IMG/VR virus record: IMGVR_UViG_3300023548_000006
Span: 1-23,889 of that record
Direction: 5' to 3' (one strand)
DNA from: a virus
Length of the DNA stretch: 23,889 nucleotides
The notes beneath the pieces are model-generated. The model was given only the letters and a program-made list of their open reading frames with translations. It was not told the origin of the DNA and ran no database searches. The translations under genes were made by a program, and so were the position numbers. Each line of letters opens with the position of its first letter. The first letter of the stretch is position 1. Positions 37 through 13,570 of this stretch are shown here, piece after piece.

Positions 37-923
37 CTACTGAATGGTCGGGAATTGATTTCAATGATTTAAGTTATGCTGATGTAGTAAACGGTGTATC
101 ATTTAGAAAATTTTCATCAGATATTACAGATATAAAAATTTCGAATGAATTTATGTACCTTTTAGGTTATTGGCTAGGAGACGGTAATTTATTTGAAAAT
201 ACTAGAAATAATGATCGTTTTGGGATGAAATGGGGTAGTTGGCAAATATGTTTTTCGGAAAAATATAAGTATATTGCACATAAGTTAAAGGATATTATAT
301 CTGATGTATTTAATATAGATGTAACTATAGATAAAGGATTATATAATCGAAAAGATGATAATCTTTGGTATATCCATATTAAAAATCCACTATTTTGTGA
401 TTGGTGGGGAAAAAATTTCGGGGGTAAATGTAAAGAAAAACGAATACCTCCCTGGGTTATATCCTTGCCGGATATTAAATTAAAACATTTAATAGCAGGA
501 TTAATTGATAGTGATGGTAATATTCTTACTCAGGGGTTTGAAATTAGTGGGATTAATAGTACTTTAATTCATCAGATATTTCAGATAGGTCTTCATCTGG
601 GTTATCCTTTTAGTAATTATGAAAATTCTAATTGCTCTGAGGTTACATTACCTGGAGGGCAAAAATGCACTGCAGGTATAGTATATATTACAAAATTAAC
701 TCACAGAGAACTTGCAGGGGATTTTCTTAAATACTCTTTAAAAGATTTGGAAAAATTTTCACGTACAAAGAAGAGCAAGTCTCGAAATAGATTACAGTTT
801 CATAATGGGCACTGGTACGCTGCTATTCGTAAAATAGAGGTACAGAAATATACAGGAACGGTATACGATTTAACTGTTGAGAATGTTCATGATTTTGAAT
901 GCGGTGGGCTGATTACTCATAAT
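1..923 (+). mobile_element. Intein 1 in portal, N-terminus outside window, LAGLIDADG type
   Basis: A protein-splicing element with a homing endonuclease. The two dodecapeptide motifs are LLGYWLGDG (159-185) and LIAGLIDSDG (489-518), each with the catalytic Asp. The splicing C-terminal block is VYDLTVENVHDFE, ending GGLITHN; Asn is codon 921-923 and the +1 extein residue is Cys (924-926). This is the canonical His-Asn/Cys junction of class 1 inteins. The N-terminal splicing block with its Cys1 is not in the window, so activity cannot be judged completely. A tandem Pro-Lys-Glu-Ser repeat at the window edge probably lies in the linker between splicing and endonuclease domains. Confidence 0.9.
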
Positions 924-3884
924 TGTTTTCCTTATGGGGCTTGGAATGTACAAGAATGTATGTGGGATCAATTTGTAATTTTAAATCCTGACTATGTATC
1001 TGTAGAGGGTACTTATTTAAATAAAAAACCTTTTATTAAATTACAACCAGACGAACATCTAAAGAAAGTTGTAACTACTGGGCAACCTAAATTTTTATAT
1101 GAACAACTTCCACGTGAGATTATTAAATATGTAAGAATGGGCCAAGAAATCCCATTATCTCCTCAAAATGTATTTCATATTGCACATAACAAGGCTCCTT
1201 ATGAAACTCTTGGGCGTTCTATTATTAAACGTATATTAAAAAGTTTAATATATGAAGATCGTATGTCAATGGCAAATTTTGCTATTGCTACTCGTCAAAC
1301 AATTCCAATTACTGTAGTAAAAATAGGCGATCCTAATTCAGGCTGGGTACCAAATGATTCTGAATTAGATGAAGTCAGAGAATTATTATCTGCACGTGAA
1401 GTAGATCCTAACTTTTGCTATGATGAAGAAACTGAATGCCTTACTGATCGTGGCTGGATAAAATATCAAGAGCTTACTTATGATCATAAAATAGCGAGTT
1501 TCAATCCTAATGGAAACCGTCTTGAATATCATTATCCGCAAGCTATTACTATCCAAGATTATAATGATGATATGATTCATTTTAAAACGCGTAAAATTGA
1601 TTGTAAAGTTACACCTAATCATAGAATGTGGGTAAAACGTGATGATAAGTGGCAAGTTATTTTTGCACAGGATGTATTAGAAACAGACATAATTCGAACA
1701 TGTGTAGATGATTATGAAAGTAAAGAATTACCGGCTACTTTAACAGTTGCGGGTGAAAAAGTAAATACAGGTGATTTTTTTGAGTTTATTGGTTGGTATA
1801 TTTCAGAAGGGTCTATTAGTTCTTATGGTAAAACTAATAGAAATTATGGGGTAAACATTACCCAAACTCATAATGGTTCTTTTAATGAAGTAAAGAAGAT
1901 AATGGAAAAACTTCCTTGGAAGTACGTATTACATCAAGATTGTCAATTTACTATTAATAATAAAATATTAGGTGACTATTTAGTAGAAAATTTTGATAAA
2001 GGTTCTAATAAGAAAAAACTTCCGCGTTGGATTTTAGACGCCTCTCCGGAATATTTGCAACGTTTATTTACTGCATATATTGAGGGCGGTGGTACAGCAG
2101 TTAAAACTAAACGGGGTGTATTTTACCAAGCATGTACTGCTTCGAAAGAATTATCAGATAATTTACAAGAAATTGGATTAAAATTAGGATATTCTGTTAG
2201 TTTAAATATAGGACAACCTTTATCTTATGTTAGTCCTAATACTGGTATACGTAGATATAAGAAGGCTGATGGTACTGATTTCTTTTTATCACACCATCTT
2301 AATTTTTCTATGGATAATGTATCTAGATTTCCTTCATTAAAACGGCGTAAAGATTATAATACTAAATTAAAAAATCTCCCTGTTTTAATAGGAGCTATTC
2401 CACATAAAGGTAAAAGAATTGATTGGGATAACATAGATTTAGTTTCTTTATTAGATCAAACAGAAGGATATGCTCCACAAGTTGCTAAATTTTTAGGTTG
2501 TACTGTTGGTACAGTTCTTAATCAAATGAAGTCTTTAGGGATTGTTCCACAAAAAGTAGGAACACGTATTTCTAAATATGAAGATACTGGGAATATTAAA
2601 CGTGTTCCATATAAAGGTAAGATATGGTGCGTATCAGTTCCTCCCGGAATTATAATAACTAGACGGCACGGTTTACCTTGCGTAGCAGGGCAGACGATTG
2701 TATATCATTGGGGAATTGACATAGAATTCTATGGGGCATCTGGAAAAATTTGGAATTTAACTAATGAATTTAATCGTATTATGAAATGGAAATTATTAGG
2801 TTTAGGTATTTCAGAGGCACTTTTAACTGGCGCAGGTTCGTATGCTTCTGCTTATGCTCAATTAGAAGTTTTACGTCAAAGATACCTCCATTTTCAAAAT
2901 ACTCTTCAACGTTTTGTATATCAAGGTATATTTGAACCTGTTGCTCGTCAATGTGGCTTTTATAAAACAAATGAAACTGTTGCTGGAAAGTATTATCAAG
3001 GTAAAAAATATGGAAGCCCTGATAGTTCTCTTGCAAAAATTGATGATGAAATTAGAAAACATGCTGCTAGTTATGATAATAAAGATAGTCATATATTTAC
3101 GCAACATTTATTACGTAAACAGGCTGCAGCTGATGCATTAGTAACCTTTGATTACCCAAAACTTGATTGGGATTTATTATCTCTTTCAAATGATGTTCAA
3201 TATCGCAATTTCTTAATGAATTTTGATAGACTTTTTCCTGGGCAACGAAAAGTTTCTGATGATTCTTTTTATACTGCCGCTAAACTTGATAGAGATACAG
3301 AAAGACTTAAAATTGAACAAGAGCACAAAGAAAATCTAGAAGATCAACTCAAGATTGGAAAAATTGATAAAGAGTATAAAAAGAAATTTGAAGAAGCGGG
3401 TATTCCATTTCCTGGTGCTCAACCTCCTCAAGGACAGGGACAGGGACAACCTGGAGTTCCTGGTGCTCCAGGAGGTTCGCCTGGCCCGGGAGGTATGAAT
3501 ATTCCTCCAGGCGGTGCTCCGCCAGTAGGTGGAACTGGTGGTGGTAATCTAATGGGTGCACCTGGAGTTGTTCCAAATGCTCCTGTAGGTAAAGGACAAT
3601 TTCAAGGTAGTCCTGGAGCACCTGGTGCTACTACAGGGGTACCTCGTAGTCCTGAAGCATCTAGATTACGTTCTATGCAATTACACGATAATTTAGCTAG
3701 AGCGAGTAAAACTATTTTAGATGAAAATAAAGAAGAAATTACTCGATTACGCAAATTTAATGCAGAAGCAGGTATAAATATTGATGCAATTGATTCTGAG
3801 ATTAATAATATTGAGGTAGATACTAATGTTAAATCTACGAAAAATAAGTCTAAAACTGCGGAAGACATCAGCAAATCCGTATGA
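1..3884 (+). CDS. Portal protein, 5' partial, interrupted by two inteins
   Basis: The frame is open from base 3, so the gene begins upstream and the ATG at 153 lies inside the first intein; it is not the gene start. The portal (extein) parts are 924-1415 and 2694-3884. After splicing, the join reads ...VDPNF-TIVYHWGI..., an uninterrupted sequence of the kind seen in large-phage portals. The second part has the helical region typical of portals (MKWKLLGLG, AYAQLEVLRQRYL). The portal is the dodecameric ring at the capsid vertex through which DNA enters and leaves. The C-terminus (about 3410-3640) is a collagen-like Gly/Pro/Gln-rich linker followed by a charged helical tail. The last 59 bases are shared with the next gene in another frame. 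The portal call rests on family resemblance and on position ahead of the protease and capsid genes; the terminase would be expected upstream. Confidence 0.8.
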   Translation, partial: PKESPKESPKESTEWSGIDFNDLSYADVVNGVSFRKFSSDITDIKISNEFMYLLGYWLGDGNLFENTRNNDRFGMKWGSWQICFSEKYKYIAHKLKDIISDVFNIDVTIDKGLYNRKDDNLWYIHIKNPLFCDWWGKNFGGKCKEKRIPPWVISLPDIKLKHLIAGLIDSDGNILTQGFEISGINSTLIHQIFQIGLHLGYPFSNYENSNCSEVTLPGGQKCTAGIVYITKLTHRELAGDFLKYSLKDLEKFSRTKKSKSRNRLQFHNGHWYAAIRKIEVQKYTGTVYDLTVENVHDFECGGLITHNCFPYGAWNVQECMWDQFVILNPDYVSVEGTYLNKKPFIKLQPDEHLKKVVTTGQPKFLYEQLPREIIKYVRMGQEIPLSPQNVFHIAHNKAPYETLGRSIIKRILKSLIYEDRMSMANFAIATRQTIPITVVKIGDPNSGWVPNDSELDEVRELLSAREVDPNFCYDEETECLTDRGWIKYQELTYDHKIASFNPNGNRLEYHYPQAITIQDYNDDMIHFKTRKIDCKVTPNHRMWVKRDDKWQVIFAQDVLETDIIRTCVDDYESKELPATLTVAGEKVNTGDFFEFIGWYISEGSISSYGKTNRNYGVNITQTHNGSFNEVKKIMEKLPWKYVLHQDCQFTINNKILGDYLVENFDKGSNKKKLPRWILDASPEYLQRLFTAYIEGGGTAVKTKRGVFYQACTASKELSDNLQEIGLKLGYSVSLNIGQPLSYVSPNTGIRRYKKADGTDFFLSHHLNFSMDNVSRFPSLKRRKDYNTKLKNLPVLIGAIPHKGKRIDWDNIDLVSLLDQTEGYAPQVAKFLGCTVGTVLNQMKSLGIVPQKVGTRISKYEDTGNIKRVPYKGKIWCVSVPPGIIITRRHGLPCVAGQTIVYHWGIDIEFYGASGKIWNLTNEFNRIMKWKLLGLGISEALLTGAGSYASAYAQLEVLRQRYLHFQNTLQRFVYQGIFEPVARQCGFYKTNETVAGKYYQGKKYGSPDSSLAKIDDEIRKHAASYDNKDSHIFTQHLLRKQAAADALVTFDYPKLDWDLLSLSNDVQYRNFLMNFDRLFPGQRKVSDDSFYTAAKLDRDTERLKIEQEHKENLEDQLKIGKIDKEYKKKFEEAGIPFPGAQPPQGQGQGQPGVPGAPGGSPGPGGMNIPPGGAPPVGGTGGGNLMGAPGVVPNAPVGKGQFQGSPGAPGATTGVPRSPEASRLRSMQLHDNLARASKTILDENKEEITRLRKFNAEAGINIDAIDSEINNIEVDTNVKSTKNKSKTAEDISKSV
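1416..2693 (+). mobile_element. Intein 2 in portal, complete, LAGLIDADG type with Gln/Thr end
   Basis: The element is 426 residues long. Block A starts at Cys1 (codon 1416) with CYDEETECLTDRGW; block B is CKVTPNHRMWV with Thr at 1611 and His at 1620. The endonuclease motifs are IGWYISEGS (1788-1814) and LFTAYIEGG (2064-2090), where Glu stands in the catalytic acidic position of both. A helix-turn-helix-like segment (VAKFLGCTVGTVLNQM, about 2479-2526) follows and may help bind the homing site. The C-terminal block is WCVSVPPG...RRHGLPCVAGQ followed by Thr (2694). The last residue is therefore Gln rather than Asn, and the penultimate residue is Gly rather than His. Gln-ended inteins that splice are known, so it need not be dead. 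Removing 1416-2693 restores a sensible portal sequence, which supports the boundaries. Confidence 0.85.
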
Positions 3885-6018: not shown

Positions 6019-6813
6019 ATGCCTACAAATATAGAACTTTTATTAAATTCTATTAATTCTGGAGACACTCCAAAAGTATTAACTAAAAAAGAAGAATTTA
6101 CTCTTGGAACATTAATTCAAAATCCTGATACTCCTGAAGATATTAAAAAGAAATCTATAAACACTTTAGTACTTCGTAATATTTATTTAGTTTTAAAACT
6201 TGTGCATAAATACAAAAGAACTTCTTTTGATTTTGAAGATTTAGTAGGCTATGGTATTTTAGGTCTTTTTTCAGCTGCTAATAAATATGATCCTCAACGC
6301 TCGAATAGATTCGCATCTTACGCAAGACATTGGATAAAAGAATCTGTAATGAAAGCAATTCGTGAGTATAGTGGTATTCCTAAAATTCCTGTATACTTAG
6401 TTAAAGATTTATGGGCTGTTACTAGAATTATTAAAAATAATGAAGATATTAGTGATGAAGCTTTAGCTACTCAATCAGGATTACCTTTAGCAAGTGTTCA
6501 ATATTTAAAAAGTTTATTATTTAAAACAGTCCAATTTGATCCTGAATATATTGAAATTTCTCATAGTACTCCTGAACAAGAATATATTTCTAAAGAGCGC
6601 GATTTTATATTTAAAGATACTCTTGAAAAAGTATTAACTCCGGAGGAATCAATTGTATTAAATCATTTTTGTGCTCTTAATGGGTGTAAAAAGATGACAT
6701 TTGCGCGTATAGAACAACATTTTAATATAAAAAACGCCCGTAAATTAAAAGTTACTGCATTTGCAAAATTAAGTAAAGATCCTAATTTAAAATTATTACA
6801 TGAGGATATTTAG
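6019..6813 (+). CDS. Phage sigma-70-family RNA polymerase sigma factor
   Basis: A 264-aa sigma factor that would redirect host RNA polymerase core to phage promoters. Region 2 is clear: FDFEDLVGYGILGLF (about residues 70-84) is the core-binding helix of region 2.2, and FASYARHWIKESVMKAI (about 98-114) is the -10 melting/recognition segment, with the aromatic Trp at about 105. A region-3-like stretch follows. The C-terminal part (LTPEES... MTFARIEQHFNI, about 205-245) matches the region 4 helix-turn-helix pattern but is divergent, so -35 recognition may be weak or altered. AAGAAGG (6004-6010) precedes the ATG by 8 bases. It is directly followed by the deformylase gene with no spacer, so the two are co-translated. 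The sequence is a sigma factor with high certainty; the late-promoter role is inferred. Confidence 0.93.
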   Translation: MPTNIELLLNSINSGDTPKVLTKKEEFTLGTLIQNPDTPEDIKKKSINTLVLRNIYLVLKLVHKYKRTSFDFEDLVGYGILGLFSAANKYDPQRSNRFASYARHWIKESVMKAIREYSGIPKIPVYLVKDLWAVTRIIKNNEDISDEALATQSGLPLASVQYLKSLLFKTVQFDPEYIEISHSTPEQEYISKERDFIFKDTLEKVLTPEESIVLNHFCALNGCKKMTFARIEQHFNIKNARKLKVTAFAKLSKDPNLKLLHEDI

Positions 6814-7428
6814 ATGAGTTATGATATACCTGCAACAAGTGAACTTCAACAACATAATAAATCATTAAGTTTTAAAGACCGATTAAATAATATTGATCCT
6901 TTGGAAATTAAATCTGTACCTATTATCCATAACAATACTTTAATTTATCGACCTAGTGAAGAAGCCACTATTGATGAGGCTGAAAAATTATGGCCAATTT
7001 TAGAAGCATCATTAGATCCTAAAATTGGCTATGGCCTTGCAGCTGTCCAAATAGGTATTTTAAAAAAGATTGCATTTATTAGATATAATGGTGAAGAATA
7101 TAGACTTTTAAATACTAGAATTACAGATAGAACAGGAATAATCCCTTTATATGGTGAAGGATGTTTAAGTCTTCCAGGTAAAGTATTTAATACTATTCGA
7201 AGCCAGCAAATTACTGTAGAAGATGATGTATTAGGACGTTTTGTATTAGATGAATCTACAAGCGGTTTACTTACTTTAATTTTTCAACATGAAGTAGATC
7301 ATTTTGAAGGTTTAACTCTTAAAGATAGACAGCGTAAACCTATAAAACATATTGAATCTAAGGTAGGACGTAATGAGTCTTGTCCTTGTGGTTCAGGTAA
7401 AAAATATAAAAAGTGTTGTGGGAACTAA
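6814..7428 (+). CDS. def: Peptide deformylase with C-terminal SEC-C zinc motif
   Basis: A metalloenzyme that removes the formyl group from N-terminal formyl-Met of nascent chains. All three catalytic motifs are intact: GYGLAAVQ (72-79), EGCLS with metal ligand Cys117, and HEVDH with ligands His159 and His163 and catalytic Glu160. The last 20 residues form a SEC-C motif ([18 protein letters not shown]; Cys190, Cys192, Cys201, Cys202), the zinc-binding tail known from SecA, which takes the place where bacterial deformylases carry a ribosome-binding helix. About 35 residues precede the catalytic fold; no function is visible for them. The ATG follows the sigma stop directly, with GAGGA 7 bases upstream. 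Phage deformylases are known; the SEC-C fusion is the odd part. Confidence 0.95.
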
Positions 7429-8015: not shown

Positions 8016-11000
8016 ATGTTAAGAAAGTTTGCATCTGGTAAACTTGCTTCTGTTATTCAAACAGAAGATGAATTTAATACTATTATAAATCCTTCATATG
8101 GTAGTTTAACTACTACATCCTCAGAACATCGTGTTCGAAAAGTAGTTAAATACAATCCAGATTTTGTGTATGCCCGTTTTAAAGCTATAGGGTCTGTTGA
8201 AGTAGACGGACCTAATGCAAACGCTGATGCATTTCCTTATATAGAGTTTCTTGATAATAGACCTAATTATGGATACCAATCATTTATTGGTAAGCACGCT
8301 TTTATAGAACATTCTAGTGATAATATTAATAATTCCATAGGAGATTTGCATCACGCATATCTTAATCGTTTTGATACTTCAAAGTTTGGGAATACTGAAT
8401 GGCAATTTTTAAAAGATGATGACCGTGCGTTTGTACTTGCAAATCGTAATCCAGAAGATGATGGTAGTATAGAAGTATTAATGGCTGTTGATCGAAAATT
8501 ATCTCCAACTGTTGCACGAATGTTAGAGACCGGTTCACCTACTGGATGTAGTATGGGAACTAATATTGATTACAGTGAATGTTCTGTATGTGGAAATCGT
8601 GCATATGTTGAAGAAAATTACTGCCCGCATATTAAATTTAGTAAGGGTCAGTATGTTTTAGTGCCCGCACAACAAATTTCTAATTTAGTAAAATCAGGGT
8701 CACTTAAACCTGAGTGGCTTCCATGGATTTTACAAAGAAGTTCTGACATTAAAGCGGTTAAAACTGCTAGTCGTAAAATGGTTTACGCAAAAGCTTTTGA
8801 GCTTAATTATGGATTAAGTTTCTTTGAACTTTCTGTAGTAGCTAATCCTGCGTATAGCAGAGGTTATAAACTTGAAAAAATTGCTTCATTATCAGCTTCT
8901 GCACAATTACTGCCTCTTATTCGAGTTGCAGGAAAACCGATTGAAGCAATTTTTAAAATTTCTAATGGGTACTATAATAATGTATTAAATACTCAAGATA
9001 TTCCAAATACATTAGCTCAACGAAATGGGGAAATTGCAAAAACTGCTTTATTTTCTGGGAACGTTCACGAAGTTTTAGTAGACCAGCGTAACGCCCCATA
9101 TTTTATAAAAGATAAAATTGAATTAACAGCTGCAGAAACTCCTGGGTTTTATAAAGTTTCTAATCCAGGAGTCCTTTTAGAAAAACAATTTGCTAATATC
9201 AGACACCGAGATAAAGTCGGTGTGGTAGGTACGATCAGCGAAACCTTATATGCATGTGCTAGTTGTATGAATGTATTTGAGCGTAATACTAATCGTAAAG
9301 TAAATCAAGATATAAGCAAATTTGATACTTTTTCTATTTGTCCAGAGTGTCCTCAACAAATTGGAATTCAGCATATAGGAGACAATACTAATATGTCAAA
9401 AAAACGCGCTGAATATGAAACTCTTCCAACCACAACAGAATTTACAGGTGATAAAGAAGTTATTCCTGGAAAAGGAGCGTTTGTTGAGGAGAAATCACAA
9501 CTTTATGAGCCTTGGGCTGAGAAAGGCAGCAAACTTATTGAAAAGGAGAAGGAATATAGGCCAATGGGAACAATTTTTATTGATCCGATCGTAGCTAAGA
9601 GTGATTTAAACTCTAGGGCTACCCGTATTACAGAACTTTCGAAGTCTGCTAGAATTTTAATTTCTCGCATTAAGTTATCTATGGAAGATCCAGCAGCTTT
9701 TATGTCTGAAATGAAAAAATCAGAACCTATAGGCGTGGGTATGGGCATAGGACCTAAACCTCCTATGGATGTGGGGATGGAAACTGACCTAGGTATAGAA
9801 GATCCTATGGGCGGTATGATGCTTGAAATTGATATGACACCCGATTCTGCAGCAGAAATTTTAAATAATGCAAAGCAAGATCTGGAAATGGTAGCTAATG
9901 ATTTAATGAAAGCAAAACAGCTTGTAGATACCAGAGAAGTTGAAGCTTCTAAAGCTATCGAGAAAAAAATTCGATGGAGTCGTAGATTTGCACTTTCTGC
10001 AGTTAAAACTGCTGAATCAGTAGATATGATTATTGAAGATGCTGAAGCTGCAGTATCTGATGCATTATTAAAACTTCAAAAAGCTTGTGATATGCTTTTT
10101 GAAGCTTCTGAAATAGATGAATCTAGTATGGATTCTGATAAAGATGATTTTTCTTCAAATCCTGCTGATTCTGATCATGATGCAGATGATATGAAAAAAG
10201 ATAAAAAAGATGATAAAAATTCTGGTGACAAAGAAGATTCTAAATCTTCTAATCCATTTGAATTTAAATCTAAAAATAAATCTGATAAATCTGATAAAGA
10301 TAAATCTGATAAAGATAAATCTGACAAACCCTCTAAAGGAGATGACGCAATGGCAAAAGAATCTACGCTGGAGCTTACCGAGGGCAATATCAACCTGCTT
10401 CAAAAATTGCGAGTTGCTTTTGCGGGAAGCCCTTCTTTACCATCAAAAACTGCTATGGAAGATGATTCTGAGAAAAAAGATGATTCTATGAATGGTAAAG
10501 ATGAAAAAGATGAAAAAGATGAAAAAGACGATAAGGATATGAAGAAAAAGAAATTTCCTTTTGAAAAGAAAGAAGCAGCTGCACAACCACCTACAGGTGC
10601 AAGAGATCTTGGAGATTACGCTGATCCAGGACGCATTGAAAGTTATGAGATGAAACGTTGGTGGCAAGATATGTATCCTGAATTTGAAAAAATGAAGGGC
10701 GCGGAAGTAGCTGGTGAATTAAATGAACCAGATAGTAAAGTAGAACTTCTTACCGGTTTCTTAGGTAATAAATCTGCTGATGATCCTGAAGTAGGTCATC
10801 AAACTAGTTCACCGGATATTTTTAATGTTTCTCCAAAAGCTGCTTTTGTAAAACGTTTTACTAAAGCAGGACCTAAATGGGCCCAATCATTTATTGGTGT
10901 TGTAAAATTAGGTGAAGATGGGCAAACTGAAGCTTTTACAGCAAACTTCCGTGATATCGCAGGTGAAACAGGTGGAGAAGCTGAATTTGAACAATTTAAT

Positions 11001-11906
11001 TCTGAAGAATATTTAGATCGAGTAATTGCTACCGTTAAAGATTACGGTATGAATGCTGCATTTTCACAAATGCGTGGAAAAGTAGCACAATTAGAAGGAA
11101 TTACTCCTGGTAAAACTGAGAAAGTTAATCCTCTTTATGATACTAAAGAAGAGAATAAACATTCTAATACTTCACGCCCAGGTGAACGTCCTGATAAAAA
11201 AGATGGGCATGGTACAACTGCGGGTGATAAAGAATTCTATGGAAAAGCTTATGGTGATGCAGGATTTGCAAGTGATTTAACTACTGCAAATAAGAAAATT
11301 GCTGCACTTTCAGATAAAATTACAACAATGGAAACCAAAGCGCGTTCTGATAAAATGGCTGAATATGCGTTACATTTAGCTCGTATGGCTTCTTCAAGAG
11401 GTATTTGTCCTTTTGATATTCCTAATATTCAGAAGCAAGCAATGGAATATATTCAATTAGATGAACCTGCAATTCAAGCAGTTAAAGCGCATATTGAAAA
11501 ACTTCCAGTAGTGAATCAACGCGCACTAGAAGCTTATCAGATTCCAGAAGCTGAGAATATGCAAAACGGTGTTATTCATAATAATGTAGACGCTGTTGAT
11601 ACTGTTCGAAACCCTGGAGGAACTTATCCTCAACAACCTGATAATGTAGCTCCTGAAGGTATTCAACCAGCAGTAAAACGTGATGCAGAAGTAAGTGCAA
11701 ATTTAAATGAAGATCGTATTCGTAAACAAGCTGCAGAACTTACAAATAATATTGTTCCGCAAATGCATGCTTCTGCAAATACACCACAACAATTTGGTGG
11801 AATGCCAGATGTGACAAAATATTTTAAAAGTACAATTGAAAATCAATTAAAACGTGCGGGTGCATATGAAGCTAATAAACAATATCTTCGTAGTAACCGC
11901 ATATAA
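8016..11906 (+). CDS. Prohead protease-like protein fused to scaffold region
   Basis: A 1296-aa protein, far longer than a usual prohead protease. Residues about 1-290 resemble the head-maturation protease fold of the HK97/herpesvirus assemblin group. They contain a His-containing segment (His94, His99, His112-113), SMG with candidate nucleophile Ser179, and the late strand FFELSVVANPAY. A CxxC...CxH zinc knuckle (Cys189, Cys192, Cys203, His205) is inserted after the serine. A second zinc ribbon lies at Cys414/Cys417 and Cys442/Cys445. After it come helical regions, Lys/Asp-rich repeats, and a helical C-terminus with a coiled-coil-like stretch. AGAGGG lies 5 bases before the ATG. Position before decoration and capsid genes fits protease plus scaffold. 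Catalytic residue assignment is tentative. Confidence 0.7.
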   Translation: MLRKFASGKLASVIQTEDEFNTIINPSYGSLTTTSSEHRVRKVVKYNPDFVYARFKAIGSVEVDGPNANADAFPYIEFLDNRPNYGYQSFIGKHAFIEHSSDNINNSIGDLHHAYLNRFDTSKFGNTEWQFLKDDDRAFVLANRNPEDDGSIEVLMAVDRKLSPTVARMLETGSPTGCSMGTNIDYSECSVCGNRAYVEENYCPHIKFSKGQYVLVPAQQISNLVKSGSLKPEWLPWILQRSSDIKAVKTASRKMVYAKAFELNYGLSFFELSVVANPAYSRGYKLEKIASLSASAQLLPLIRVAGKPIEAIFKISNGYYNNVLNTQDIPNTLAQRNGEIAKTALFSGNVHEVLVDQRNAPYFIKDKIELTAAETPGFYKVSNPGVLLEKQFANIRHRDKVGVVGTISETLYACASCMNVFERNTNRKVNQDISKFDTFSICPECPQQIGIQHIGDNTNMSKKRAEYETLPTTTEFTGDKEVIPGKGAFVEEKSQLYEPWAEKGSKLIEKEKEYRPMGTIFIDPIVAKSDLNSRATRITELSKSARILISRIKLSMEDPAAFMSEMKKSEPIGVGMGIGPKPPMDVGMETDLGIEDPMGGMMLEIDMTPDSAAEILNNAKQDLEMVANDLMKAKQLVDTREVEASKAIEKKIRWSRRFALSAVKTAESVDMIIEDAEAAVSDALLKLQKACDMLFEASEIDESSMDSDKDDFSSNPADSDHDADDMKKDKKDDKNSGDKEDSKSSNPFEFKSKNKSDKSDKDKSDKDKSDKPSKGDDAMAKESTLELTEGNINLLQKLRVAFAGSPSLPSKTAMEDDSEKKDDSMNGKDEKDEKDEKDDKDMKKKKFPFEKKEAAAQPPTGARDLGDYADPGRIESYEMKRWWQDMYPEFEKMKGAEVAGELNEPDSKVELLTGFLGNKSADDPEVGHQTSSPDIFNVSPKAAFVKRFTKAGPKWAQSFIGVVKLGEDGQTEAFTANFRDIAGETGGEAEFEQFNSEEYLDRVIATVKDYGMNAAFSQMRGKVAQLEGITPGKTEKVNPLYDTKEENKHSNTSRPGERPDKKDGHGTTAGDKEFYGKAYGDAGFASDLTTANKKIAALSDKITTMETKARSDKMAEYALHLARMASSRGICPFDIPNIQKQAMEYIQLDEPAIQAVKAHIEKLPVVNQRALEAYQIPEAENMQNGVIHNNVDAVDTVRNPGGTYPQQPDNVAPEGIQPAVKRDAEVSANLNEDRIRKQAAELTNNIVPQMHASANTPQQFGGMPDVTKYFKSTIENQLKRAGAYEANKQYLRSNRI
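10278..10526 (+). repeat. Lys/Asp-rich tandem repeats on both sides of internal start
   Basis: At 10278-10328 the codons form imperfect 15-base units encoding Ser-Asp-Lys-Asp-Lys. At 10500-10526 three 9-base units encode Asp-Glu-Lys. They make highly charged, probably disordered linkers separating the protease part from the scaffold part, on either side of the internal start at 10350. Confidence 0.8.
10350..11906 (+). CDS. Nested in-frame scaffold protein (518 aa), internal start
   Basis: In the frame of the protease-like gene, AAAGGAG (10335-10341) stands 8 bases before ATG at 10350, one of the best ribosome binding sites in the window although it lies inside a gene. The codons just after it (ctg gag ctt acc gag ggc) are richer in G/C than their surroundings, as at the starts of the decoration and capsid genes. 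The product starts MAKESTLELTEGN, contains a helical, coiled-coil-like segment (LTTANKKIAALSDKITTMET) and lacks the protease domain. This is the layout of lambda C/Nu3, where the scaffold is made from an internal start in the protease gene. The role is inferred; the start signal is seen directly. Confidence 0.6.
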   Translation: MAKESTLELTEGNINLLQKLRVAFAGSPSLPSKTAMEDDSEKKDDSMNGKDEKDEKDEKDDKDMKKKKFPFEKKEAAAQPPTGARDLGDYADPGRIESYEMKRWWQDMYPEFEKMKGAEVAGELNEPDSKVELLTGFLGNKSADDPEVGHQTSSPDIFNVSPKAAFVKRFTKAGPKWAQSFIGVVKLGEDGQTEAFTANFRDIAGETGGEAEFEQFNSEEYLDRVIATVKDYGMNAAFSQMRGKVAQLEGITPGKTEKVNPLYDTKEENKHSNTSRPGERPDKKDGHGTTAGDKEFYGKAYGDAGFASDLTTANKKIAALSDKITTMETKARSDKMAEYALHLARMASSRGICPFDIPNIQKQAMEYIQLDEPAIQAVKAHIEKLPVVNQRALEAYQIPEAENMQNGVIHNNVDAVDTVRNPGGTYPQQPDNVAPEGIQPAVKRDAEVSANLNEDRIRKQAAELTNNIVPQMHASANTPQQFGGMPDVTKYFKSTIENQLKRAGAYEANKQYLRSNRI

Positions 11907-11909
11907 TTA
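11902..11909 (+). promoter_or_regulatory. TATAATTA octamer upstream of decoration gene
   Basis: The octamer overlaps the stop codon of the protease-like gene and lies about 30 bases before the decoration gene start. The flanking atataattatta is repeated exactly at 13521-13532. There is no -35 hexamer at the usual spacing. Candidate -10-only late promoter. Confidence 0.35.
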
Positions 11910-11940
11910 TTATGTTTAACGTTTTTAAGGAGGAACACTA

Positions 11941-12498
11941 ATGGCAAATGTATTATCGCTGAATGGTTTTTTTGGCGTAAAGCAAGCCTTTAATGTTGCC
12001 GACCCCGTTGTTACCACTGGGTGGACAGAGGGGCAGCTCTTTAATATTGCTAGCATCGGAACACCCGGTGGTGGCACTCTTAAAGGTGCTGTAGGCGCAA
12101 GAGGCCCGTTTGTTGGTCTTGTTACTACTTCAGGTTCTACTATTACAGGTATTGCCCTTGAAGGATCTGACGAGGCTACTAGCCCTGTTTCGGGTATGCA
12201 ACAACCATCGGGTTCAATGGTTACTTTACTTCATGGCCACAGTTCATTTACTATTCAGTATAAAGGTACTGGAGCAACAGCATTAGCTCGTTGGGCAGAT
12301 GGTGCACCGTGGCAAGCTCACGTAGAGTCAGCAAATCTTATGGATCTATTGTATACAGGAGAAGATGGCAAATTTTCTACTGGTACTTTAACTAGTGATT
12401 TAGTAGCTGGTGCTTTACAACCACATGCAATTGGATACTTATCACAGGTTCCAAGTGCTGGAAACGATTACACCATGGGCGTTGTCCTATTTGGATAA
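11941..12498 (+). CDS. Probable head decoration protein
   Basis: A 185-aa Gly/Ala/Thr/Ser-rich protein of predicted beta structure with few charges, directly before the major capsid gene, the usual place for a capsid decoration or stabilising protein. It has no cysteine motif or membrane segment. TAAGGAGGA (11926-11934) is among the strongest ribosome binding sites here, and early codons are G/C-rich (gcc gac ccc gtt), both signs of high expression. Eighteen bases separate it from the capsid gene. The assignment rests mainly on position and composition; a minor capsid protein is the alternative. Confidence 0.6.
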   Translation: MANVLSLNGFFGVKQAFNVADPVVTTGWTEGQLFNIASIGTPGGGTLKGAVGARGPFVGLVTTSGSTITGIALEGSDEATSPVSGMQQPSGSMVTLLHGHSSFTIQYKGTGATALARWADGAPWQAHVESANLMDLLYTGEDGKFSTGTLTSDLVAGALQPHAIGYLSQVPSAGNDYTMGVVLFG

Positions 12499-12515
12499 TA
12501 TAAGGAGGATAAATA

Positions 12516-13526
12516 ATGAGCTTTAATAAACAAGCATCTTCGTATCCGCCTGGATTTCAAAAGACTGCGCCTAATGCAGGGTTCGGAGTTGAAAAAACTG
12601 CGGCACCTCAAGATTTCCAGACTGTAGATCCGTATACTCAATATTCAGATGCGAGTGAAGCGGATCAAATTTTTACACTTTTACAAACTGAAGCTGGTCG
12701 TCAGGCTCTTGGAGCTCAGATGGCTATTCCTATTCGTACCCAGCTTGATTATCAAGGTATGGCGCGTAGATTTTTCGAAATTGATGTACTGGGCCAAGGT
12801 CAGATTGCTCGTTACGATAAGGATATTAACGCTTTTGCGTCTACTGTGACAAAAAAAGGTGAAGCTGTCCAGTTTATCGTTGAAGGAGAATTTGTTGAAC
12901 CTGTAACCTGGGAAATTTTTGCTCCTGCGGCTATTAGATTGAAAGAAATTCAACAGAGACGTTTTAATGTTCTTGATCGTATGCAAGAGCGTATTCGCAT
13001 TGCTGTACAACTAGAAGAAGATGAGCAATTTTTAGCTCTTACAGAAACTACTGTATTAGCAAACACAGCAAACAATCCGGTAACTACATCAACATTAGGT
13101 GCTAATAAAGACCTTATGAATGCATTATCTGCAGAAATTATGAAGTTTGATCTTCCTGCATATGCATATTTGATGAATTTTAAAACGTATTCACAACTAC
13201 GTACATGGCGTCGCGAAGACATTGATCCAATTACTCAGCGTGAAATTTGGCAAACTGGTTTAGTTGGTAATGTTTGGGGTATCGATTTAATCGTATCTCG
13301 TTTAGTTCCTAACGATACTATTTATTGTTATAGTGAACCACGTTTTACCGGTGTACTTCCTATTCGTACAGATCTTATTCTGTTACCAGATGATACTCCA
13401 AAAGAGGCATTAATTGGTTATGTAGGATATGAAGAAATTGGTATGCTATTTGTTAATAGTAATTCGATTTCCAAAGCAACGTTTACGGGGTATATTGGGC
13501 ATAATCAGACAACTGCTGTAATATAA
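12516..13526 (+). CDS. Major capsid protein
   Basis: A 336-aa protein with the features of an HK97-fold capsid subunit. It has a low-complexity N-terminal arm (about 1-55), then an acidic helical segment (EADQIFTLLQTEAGRQAL). A long helix follows about residues 146-175 (IRLKEIQQRRFNVLDRMQER). The C-terminal beta-rich domain includes WGIDLIVSRLVP and a short YEEIGMLFVNSNSI strand. It forms the icosahedral shell. AAGGAGGA (12502-12509) precedes the ATG, and it follows the decoration gene in the same transcript. The N-terminal arm could be removed by the protease encoded upstream; that is inference. The downstream hairpin may help keep its transcript abundant. Confidence 0.85.
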   Translation: MSFNKQASSYPPGFQKTAPNAGFGVEKTAAPQDFQTVDPYTQYSDASEADQIFTLLQTEAGRQALGAQMAIPIRTQLDYQGMARRFFEIDVLGQGQIARYDKDINAFASTVTKKGEAVQFIVEGEFVEPVTWEIFAPAAIRLKEIQQRRFNVLDRMQERIRIAVQLEEDEQFLALTETTVLANTANNPVTTSTLGANKDLMNALSAEIMKFDLPAYAYLMNFKTYSQLRTWRREDIDPITQREIWQTGLVGNVWGIDLIVSRLVPNDTIYCYSEPRFTGVLPIRTDLILLPDDTPKEALIGYVGYEEIGMLFVNSNSISKATFTGYIGHNQTTAVI

Positions 13527-13542: not shown

Positions 13543-13570
13543 GGAGATAGGGGGAATTCCCCCTATCTCC
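13543..13570 (+). terminator. Perfect 28-base palindrome after capsid gene
   Basis: A 12-bp stem (ggagataggggg / ccccctatctcc) with an aatt loop. It begins 16 bases after the capsid stop and ends 23 bases before the next ATG. No T-run follows, so it may be a partial terminator, an RNase processing site or a 3'-end stabiliser for the capsid mRNA rather than a full intrinsic terminator. Confidence 0.6.

Follow-up and report, generated by a model that had tools for sequence, protein, structure and literature searches.

In this study, we found that a single long gene of an AT-rich tailed phage probably gives rise to both a scarce protease-scaffold fusion and an abundant free scaffold, the latter through ribosomes that would start inside the reading frame; initiation, product ratio, scaffold role and co-assembly are points that we infer from sequence comparison. 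The gene, which lies in a 23.9-kb piece of the phage genome (23,889 nucleotides, hereafter the window), would join a head-maturation protease (residues ~1-459) to a scaffolding protein (residues ~460-1296). Ribosomes would begin weakly at codon 1 to make the protease-scaffold fusion, better at codon 460 to make an 837-aa scaffold, and best at codon 779 to make a short scaffold of 518 aa. Because all of these products share the C-terminal part, free scaffold could be supplied in excess while the common part would bring a small number of protease molecules into the prohead for later cleavage of scaffold and capsid proteins. A mechanism for excess scaffold is to be expected, since scaffold outnumbers protease in T4 proheads, at ~576 against 100 copies (PMC5694885). 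The features are collected in Table 1.

Table 1. Features of the protease-scaffold gene and its downstream neighbours (positions in the window)
Feature	Position	Strand	Basis or remark
Fused protease-scaffold ORF, 1296-aa full-length product	8016..11906	+	phrog_18299 head maturation protease match; full-length homologues
Protease domain, ~residues 40-292	8133..8891	+	phrog_18299/phrog_2774 match all 20 aligned members
Candidate catalytic residues His99 and Ser179	8310-8312; 8550-8552	+	Invariant in alignments
Cys-x2-Cys ... Cys-x2-Cys, zinc-ribbon-like stretch	9255..9350	+	Immediately 5' of internal start 1; weak Zn_ribbon match under cutoff
SD AGGAG of internal start 1	9377..9381	+	-7.3 kcal/mol, second strongest in the ORF
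Internal start 1, ATG codon 460, MSKKRAEY; predicted 837-aa product	9393..11906	+	SD and ATG kept in fused homologues; counterpart of the scaffold gene of split relatives
Charged disordered linker (Asp/Lys/Ser repeats)	10110..10349	+	Holds internal start 2; absent from split scaffolds
SD AAAGGAG of internal start 2	10335..10341	+	-8.7 kcal/mol, strongest in the ORF
Internal start 2, ATG codon 779, MAKESTLEL; predicted 518-aa product, likely the abundant scaffold	10350..11906	+	ATG/GTG at the aligned codon in 11/11
N-terminus of the short form, predicted for the window after Met removal: AKESTLELTEGN...			
Decoration-protein-like gene	11941..12498	+	Strong SD (-12.1); precedes capsid gene, cf. 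phage G gp26
Major capsid protein gene	12516..13526	+	phrog_2522 major head protein, E 3.5e-51; strong SD (-12.2)

The window carries, in order, a portal-like ORF with an intein remnant, a sigma factor, a peptide deformylase, the 1296-aa protease ORF, a decoration-like gene (for which no family match was obtained), the major capsid gene and tail genes. The portal-like ORF (153-3884) opens with ~250 codons from the C-terminal portion of an intein (splicing domain, LAGLIDADG), and the true beginning of this ORF probably lies to the left of the window. Between the portal and protease genes, 6019-7428 encodes two proteins, one resembling sigma-70 factors and the other a peptide deformylase that carries a SEC-C tail. 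Just 3' of the capsid gene there is a perfect 24-base palindrome, AGATAGGGGGAATTCCCCCTATCT (13545-13568), with no clear T run. A search of genome contigs for a host of the window phage found no relative.

The protease domain of the window matches phrog_18299 and phrog_2774 (E 2.8e-15 and 9.6e-12), as do all members of the alignment (20/20). H99, D159 and S179 are invariant in the protease alignments, and His99 and Ser179 are, by analogy, candidate catalytic residues. Its closest named relatives are Bacillus phage G gp19, mycobacteriophage Myrna gp97 and a protein of Erwinia phage Y3. Against Pfam and NCBIfam, including Peptidase_S49 and S78, nothing exceeded the cutoff, one member each reaching S78 and S78_2 at E 0.04-0.1, and the structure model of the protease gave no fold match to solved proteases. 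The tripeptide Lys-x-Ala occurs 22 times in the protease-scaffold ORF against 11 expected (z 3.6, ~2x); it is also enriched in the capsid and decoration proteins (region 8016-13526), not in three other ORFs tested, and is a candidate for the motif cleaved by the head protease.

The original prediction had pointed to AAAGGAG at 10335-10341, followed after an 8-base spacer by the ATG at 10350, in frame as codon 779 and after a charged linker, and this description is accurate; the linker is rich in Lys, Asp and Ser and directly precedes the start. Among the 49 in-frame ATG/GTG/TTG codons of the ORF, this ATG has the best anti-SD pairing with the 16S tail (-8.7 vs -6.3 kcal/mol for the gene's own start); the mRNA accessibility of the internal sites is mildly above average. 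An out-of-frame ATG at 10342 was rejected as the intended start, as it abuts the SD without a spacer. Judged on the window sequence alone, the SD signal of codon 779 is modest: 0.9% of codons have an SD as good upstream, and with 46 ATG/GTG codons ~0.4 such sites are expected by chance in one sequence. Relatives were needed for this reason, and it is conservation among them, not the window alone, that excludes chance for this site. It had also been claimed that the codons following the start are G/C-richer, as in the decoration and capsid genes. Within the window this holds, as GC3 over the 30 codons after codon 779 is 0.43 against 0.16 gene-wide (top 0.6% of 30-codon windows; decoration gene 0.43, capsid gene 0.30), but in the homologues GC3 is unremarkable, so that the G/C-rich run is peculiar to the window phage and no general signature.

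Homologues were gathered by scanning viral contigs with the full protein, the C-terminal module, the capsid protein and the protease. Eleven distinct fused ORFs were obtained, namely that of the window, its full-length homologues (L002, L003, L008, L009, L012, L010, L025, L026 and L028, of which L010 and L028 are near-duplicates at 94%) and L024, which is truncated by its own contig end. Around codon 779 (site 2) the homologues are 33-61% identical to the window, identity at 4-fold sites is 28-63% outside L010/L028, and the linker is otherwise hardly alignable. At the position of codon 779, the alignment shows a start codon in 11/11 ORFs, ATG in seven and GTG in the four most divergent. Where it reads as valine, GTG is used in 4/4 loci, this codon making up 9-19% of valine codons in the same genes. 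The following residue is A, S, G, T or P in all 11, compared with ~38% expected, and the resulting N-termini (MAKE, MSKE, MGKE, MSKD, VAKK, VTKK, VPDE) are like real protein starts. Further, the SD of site 2 (-8.7 to -13.0) is the strongest among the 25-49 in-frame ATG/GTG codons in 10/11 fused ORFs and ranks second in the remaining one. Synonymous-codon randomisation lent weak support to selection on the SD given the peptide (Fisher p ~0.03 per site), the test being weak because the Lys/Glu-Gly-Gly-Asp peptide already implies much of the SD, part of which could be a by-product of that conserved peptide. As evidence, we replaced it by the tests of GTG usage, second residue, SD rank and split versus fused genes. 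These comparisons best support an in-frame nested start that yields a scaffold-like C-terminal product of its own, its SD, start codon and small second residue being kept in 11/11 and absent from separate scaffolds. The gene would work like lambda C/Nu3, though no kinship to the lambda protease was seen among the peptidase-family matches.

The original prediction named one nested start, at codon 779; a second conserved in-frame start (codon 460, ATG 9393) had been overlooked. The SD of codon 460 (site 1) is conserved in the fused loci, ranking second or third in most, and in content its product matches the scaffolds that L042-L055 encode as separate genes. SD strength rises from the gene's own start to site 1 and on to site 2 in 9/10 loci with a known start, the two internal sites being about equal in L025, and these strengths predict the short product in excess over the long one. 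Codon 517 (EYRP/MGTIF) also has SD-like bases, but its peptide is fully conserved and we did not count it as a further start. With some reserve, we lean towards a stronger statement, that this is a three-tier gene (full-length, 837-aa and 518-aa products from three starts of rising SD) and that internal starts have arisen repeatedly upon fusion of protease and scaffold in the wider superfamily; given three starts of rising strength, the product ratio would be set by SD strength.

Relatives that encode the two functions separately provide natural controls. In 12 homologous scaffold ORFs with a gene of their own, none of 171 candidates is a strong internal start, and these split scaffolds have neither the linker nor the SD of site 2. 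In a protease tree of 79 domains, the fused clade of the window (SH-aLRT 93) is nested within a larger clade (100) to which ten split relatives belong as well, and parsimony requires five changes between the split and fused states, two of them forced by starred branches. The simplest history is likely one in which adjacent protease and scaffold genes fused, the ribosome site of the scaffold gene being retained as site 1 and site 2 being gained after the fusion; site 2 would not have been inherited from split scaffolds because its linker is absent there. The direction from split to fused is likely, short of proof, because the tree was built quickly and contains some long branches. In L038 (1515-5598), the protease ORF shares an overlap with an ORF of 1036 codons that contains the scaffold and has a very strong SD (-12.1) at its codon 118, an arrangement that is possibly intermediate between the split and fused states. 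A tblastn search with the middle and C-terminal parts alone gave no match among annotated phages. Homology of phage G gp20 and gp21 to the middle and C modules is not claimed, gp20 giving no match and gp21 a weak one (E 0.015-0.02).

Two other readings of the conserved sites bear on whether ribosomes use them. According to one, the linker peptide G-G-D/E-x-M/V is conserved as a protein feature, for example a site at which the prohead protease separates the polyprotein into protease and scaffold, so that the resemblance to an SD would arise by chance from Gly-Gly codons and translation would yield the full-length protein alone. The weak significance of the synonymous-codon test and the position of site 2 at a module border fit this, as does the cleavage of precursors at short motifs after Glu by T4 and giant-phage proteases (PMC5694885). 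A protein feature, though, would call neither for GTG as the valine codon in 4/4 and a start codon in 11/11 nor for a next residue that is small in every case, as in genuine N-termini; moreover, unfused scaffolds have neither linker nor SD, SD energies exceed that of the gene's own start, and the same design recurs at codon 460 in an unrelated peptide context. We consider this reading improbable. Still less probable is that the internal ribosome sites are relics of once-separate scaffold genes, now firing little or never. The nesting of the fused clade among split relatives and the correspondence of site 1 to the scaffold-gene start of those relatives would suit such relics, but SDs of -8.7 to -13.0 are retained in 11/11, when unused signals would be erased at the low 4-fold-site identity of these loci, and the site-2 linker is missing from split scaffolds. 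Internal initiation is our preferred reading of both sites.

That the C-terminal product is a scaffold we infer from three things: it is fused to the protease, it is encoded ahead of the decoration and capsid genes, and lambda and Mu offer a parallel. Its structure model consists of helices and long disorder at low confidence (pLDDT 57), structure matches of this model were dismissed as meaningless, and there is no family or fold match that identifies a scaffold. The lack of a match would suit a case in which internal initiation is real and the short product is an internal head protein (ejected or core) or a regulator, and giant phages do pack many internal head proteins (PMC5694885, PMC7411985). 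We hold this to be unlikely, given that the gene is fused to a protease and adjoins decoration and capsid genes, that the C-terminal part is helical and disordered in the model, and that no other candidate scaffold was recognised in the window between the protease and capsid genes.

In the wider superfamily, one or more strong in-frame ATG/GTG codons lie downstream of the protease domain in 51/67 distinct fused protease ORFs (593-2545 aa), compared with 32/119 other long ORFs of the same loci (Fisher 1e-10), and strong sites number 103/2042 in frame, 58/3070 out of frame and 46/2845 in control ORFs (in frame vs control 9e-12), p-values that overstate certainty because members of the set are not independent of each other. 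Among ORFs of the Myrna type, an in-frame ATG stands directly before R-x-A-D-E-K-L-E-V-A-A-P-D-x-R in 14, 13 of which have SDs between -6.6 and -12.0, and a further in-frame ATG precedes MARSTLASR in six aligned phages, with an SD of -5 to -6 in most. Conserved internal ATGs lie at codon 799 in Myrna, 839 in Tonenili and 421 in Phrappuccino. No homology was detectable between Myrna-type and window-type C-terminal parts. The internal starts of the Myrna type are probably an independent case, because start positions and neighbouring sequence differ. Some Myrna-type members carry an inserted methyltransferase-like stretch. The public record lists Myrna gp97 itself (L005:5980-9615) as a tape measure protein, but it is a protease joined to a long C-terminal region. 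In L142 and L134, protease-led open frames of >2500 codons run off the contig stretch and have few strong internal starts for their length.

For SPN3US, a separate gene, gp22, has been proposed as a scaffold candidate (PMC7411985). For a related large-phage superfamily, sequence here points to a scaffold inside the protease gene, behind ribosome sites of its own. The repeated origin of internal starts upon fusion, if true, would give Myrna-type phages their missing scaffold. Gene callers report the long ORF alone. The family also offers an example of two genes that fused and yet appear to have kept separate dosage control through internal initiation, with the split relatives at hand for comparison.

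Nested arrangements of this kind have precedents. Phage lambda C/Nu3 is a protease with a nested scaffold (Shaw and Murialdo 1980, cited in PMC8508860). The window gene is like C/Nu3 in having one frame common to protease and scaffold, an internal scaffold start, and a scaffold that is the C-terminal domain of the protease; it differs in being much longer and in having two stacked internal starts instead of one. It also differs from lambda C in that its protease matches phrog_18299/phrog_2774 and no named Pfam or NCBIfam peptidase family. In the Mu-like phage PaMx73, the internal scaffold start is a Val codon preceded by ACGAGGA with a 9-base spacer (PMC4378225). Mu I/Z and PaMx73 thus share with the window an in-frame scaffold start within the protease gene, and the Val start of PaMx73 resembles the GTG forms seen here. 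Unlike the window family, they have a single internal start and no split relatives shown, and kinship in sequence is undetectable. Herpesvirus UL26/UL26.5 likewise couples a protease-scaffold precursor to an excess of in-frame scaffold with a common C-terminus, UL26.5 being made from its own transcript. The shared C-terminus is alike in the window, which differs in that internal ribosome binding sites on one gene would do the work.

Within the same superfamily, Bacillus phage G (gp19-gp21) and the split relatives L011, L038 and L049 have a homologous protease (gp19, hhalign 99.6%), and in L011 and L042-L055 the scaffold is also homologous to that of the window. They differ in keeping protease and scaffold in separate genes, phage G gp21 being weakly like the C part. 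Myrna gp97 and its kin (Phabba, Tonenili, Pupper, Phrappuccino) resemble the window in their homologous protease, long C-terminal part and conserved in-frame SD and ATG, and differ in start positions, neighbouring sequence and C-terminal parts, which are not detectably homologous. A search of the open-access literature, with most subscription journals outside its scope, returned no paper describing this arrangement. Although nested protease/scaffold starts are already known from lambda and Mu, the doubled start, its conservation through ATG-GTG turnover, its tie to gene fusion with unfused controls, and its spread in a superfamily of large phages appear to be new.
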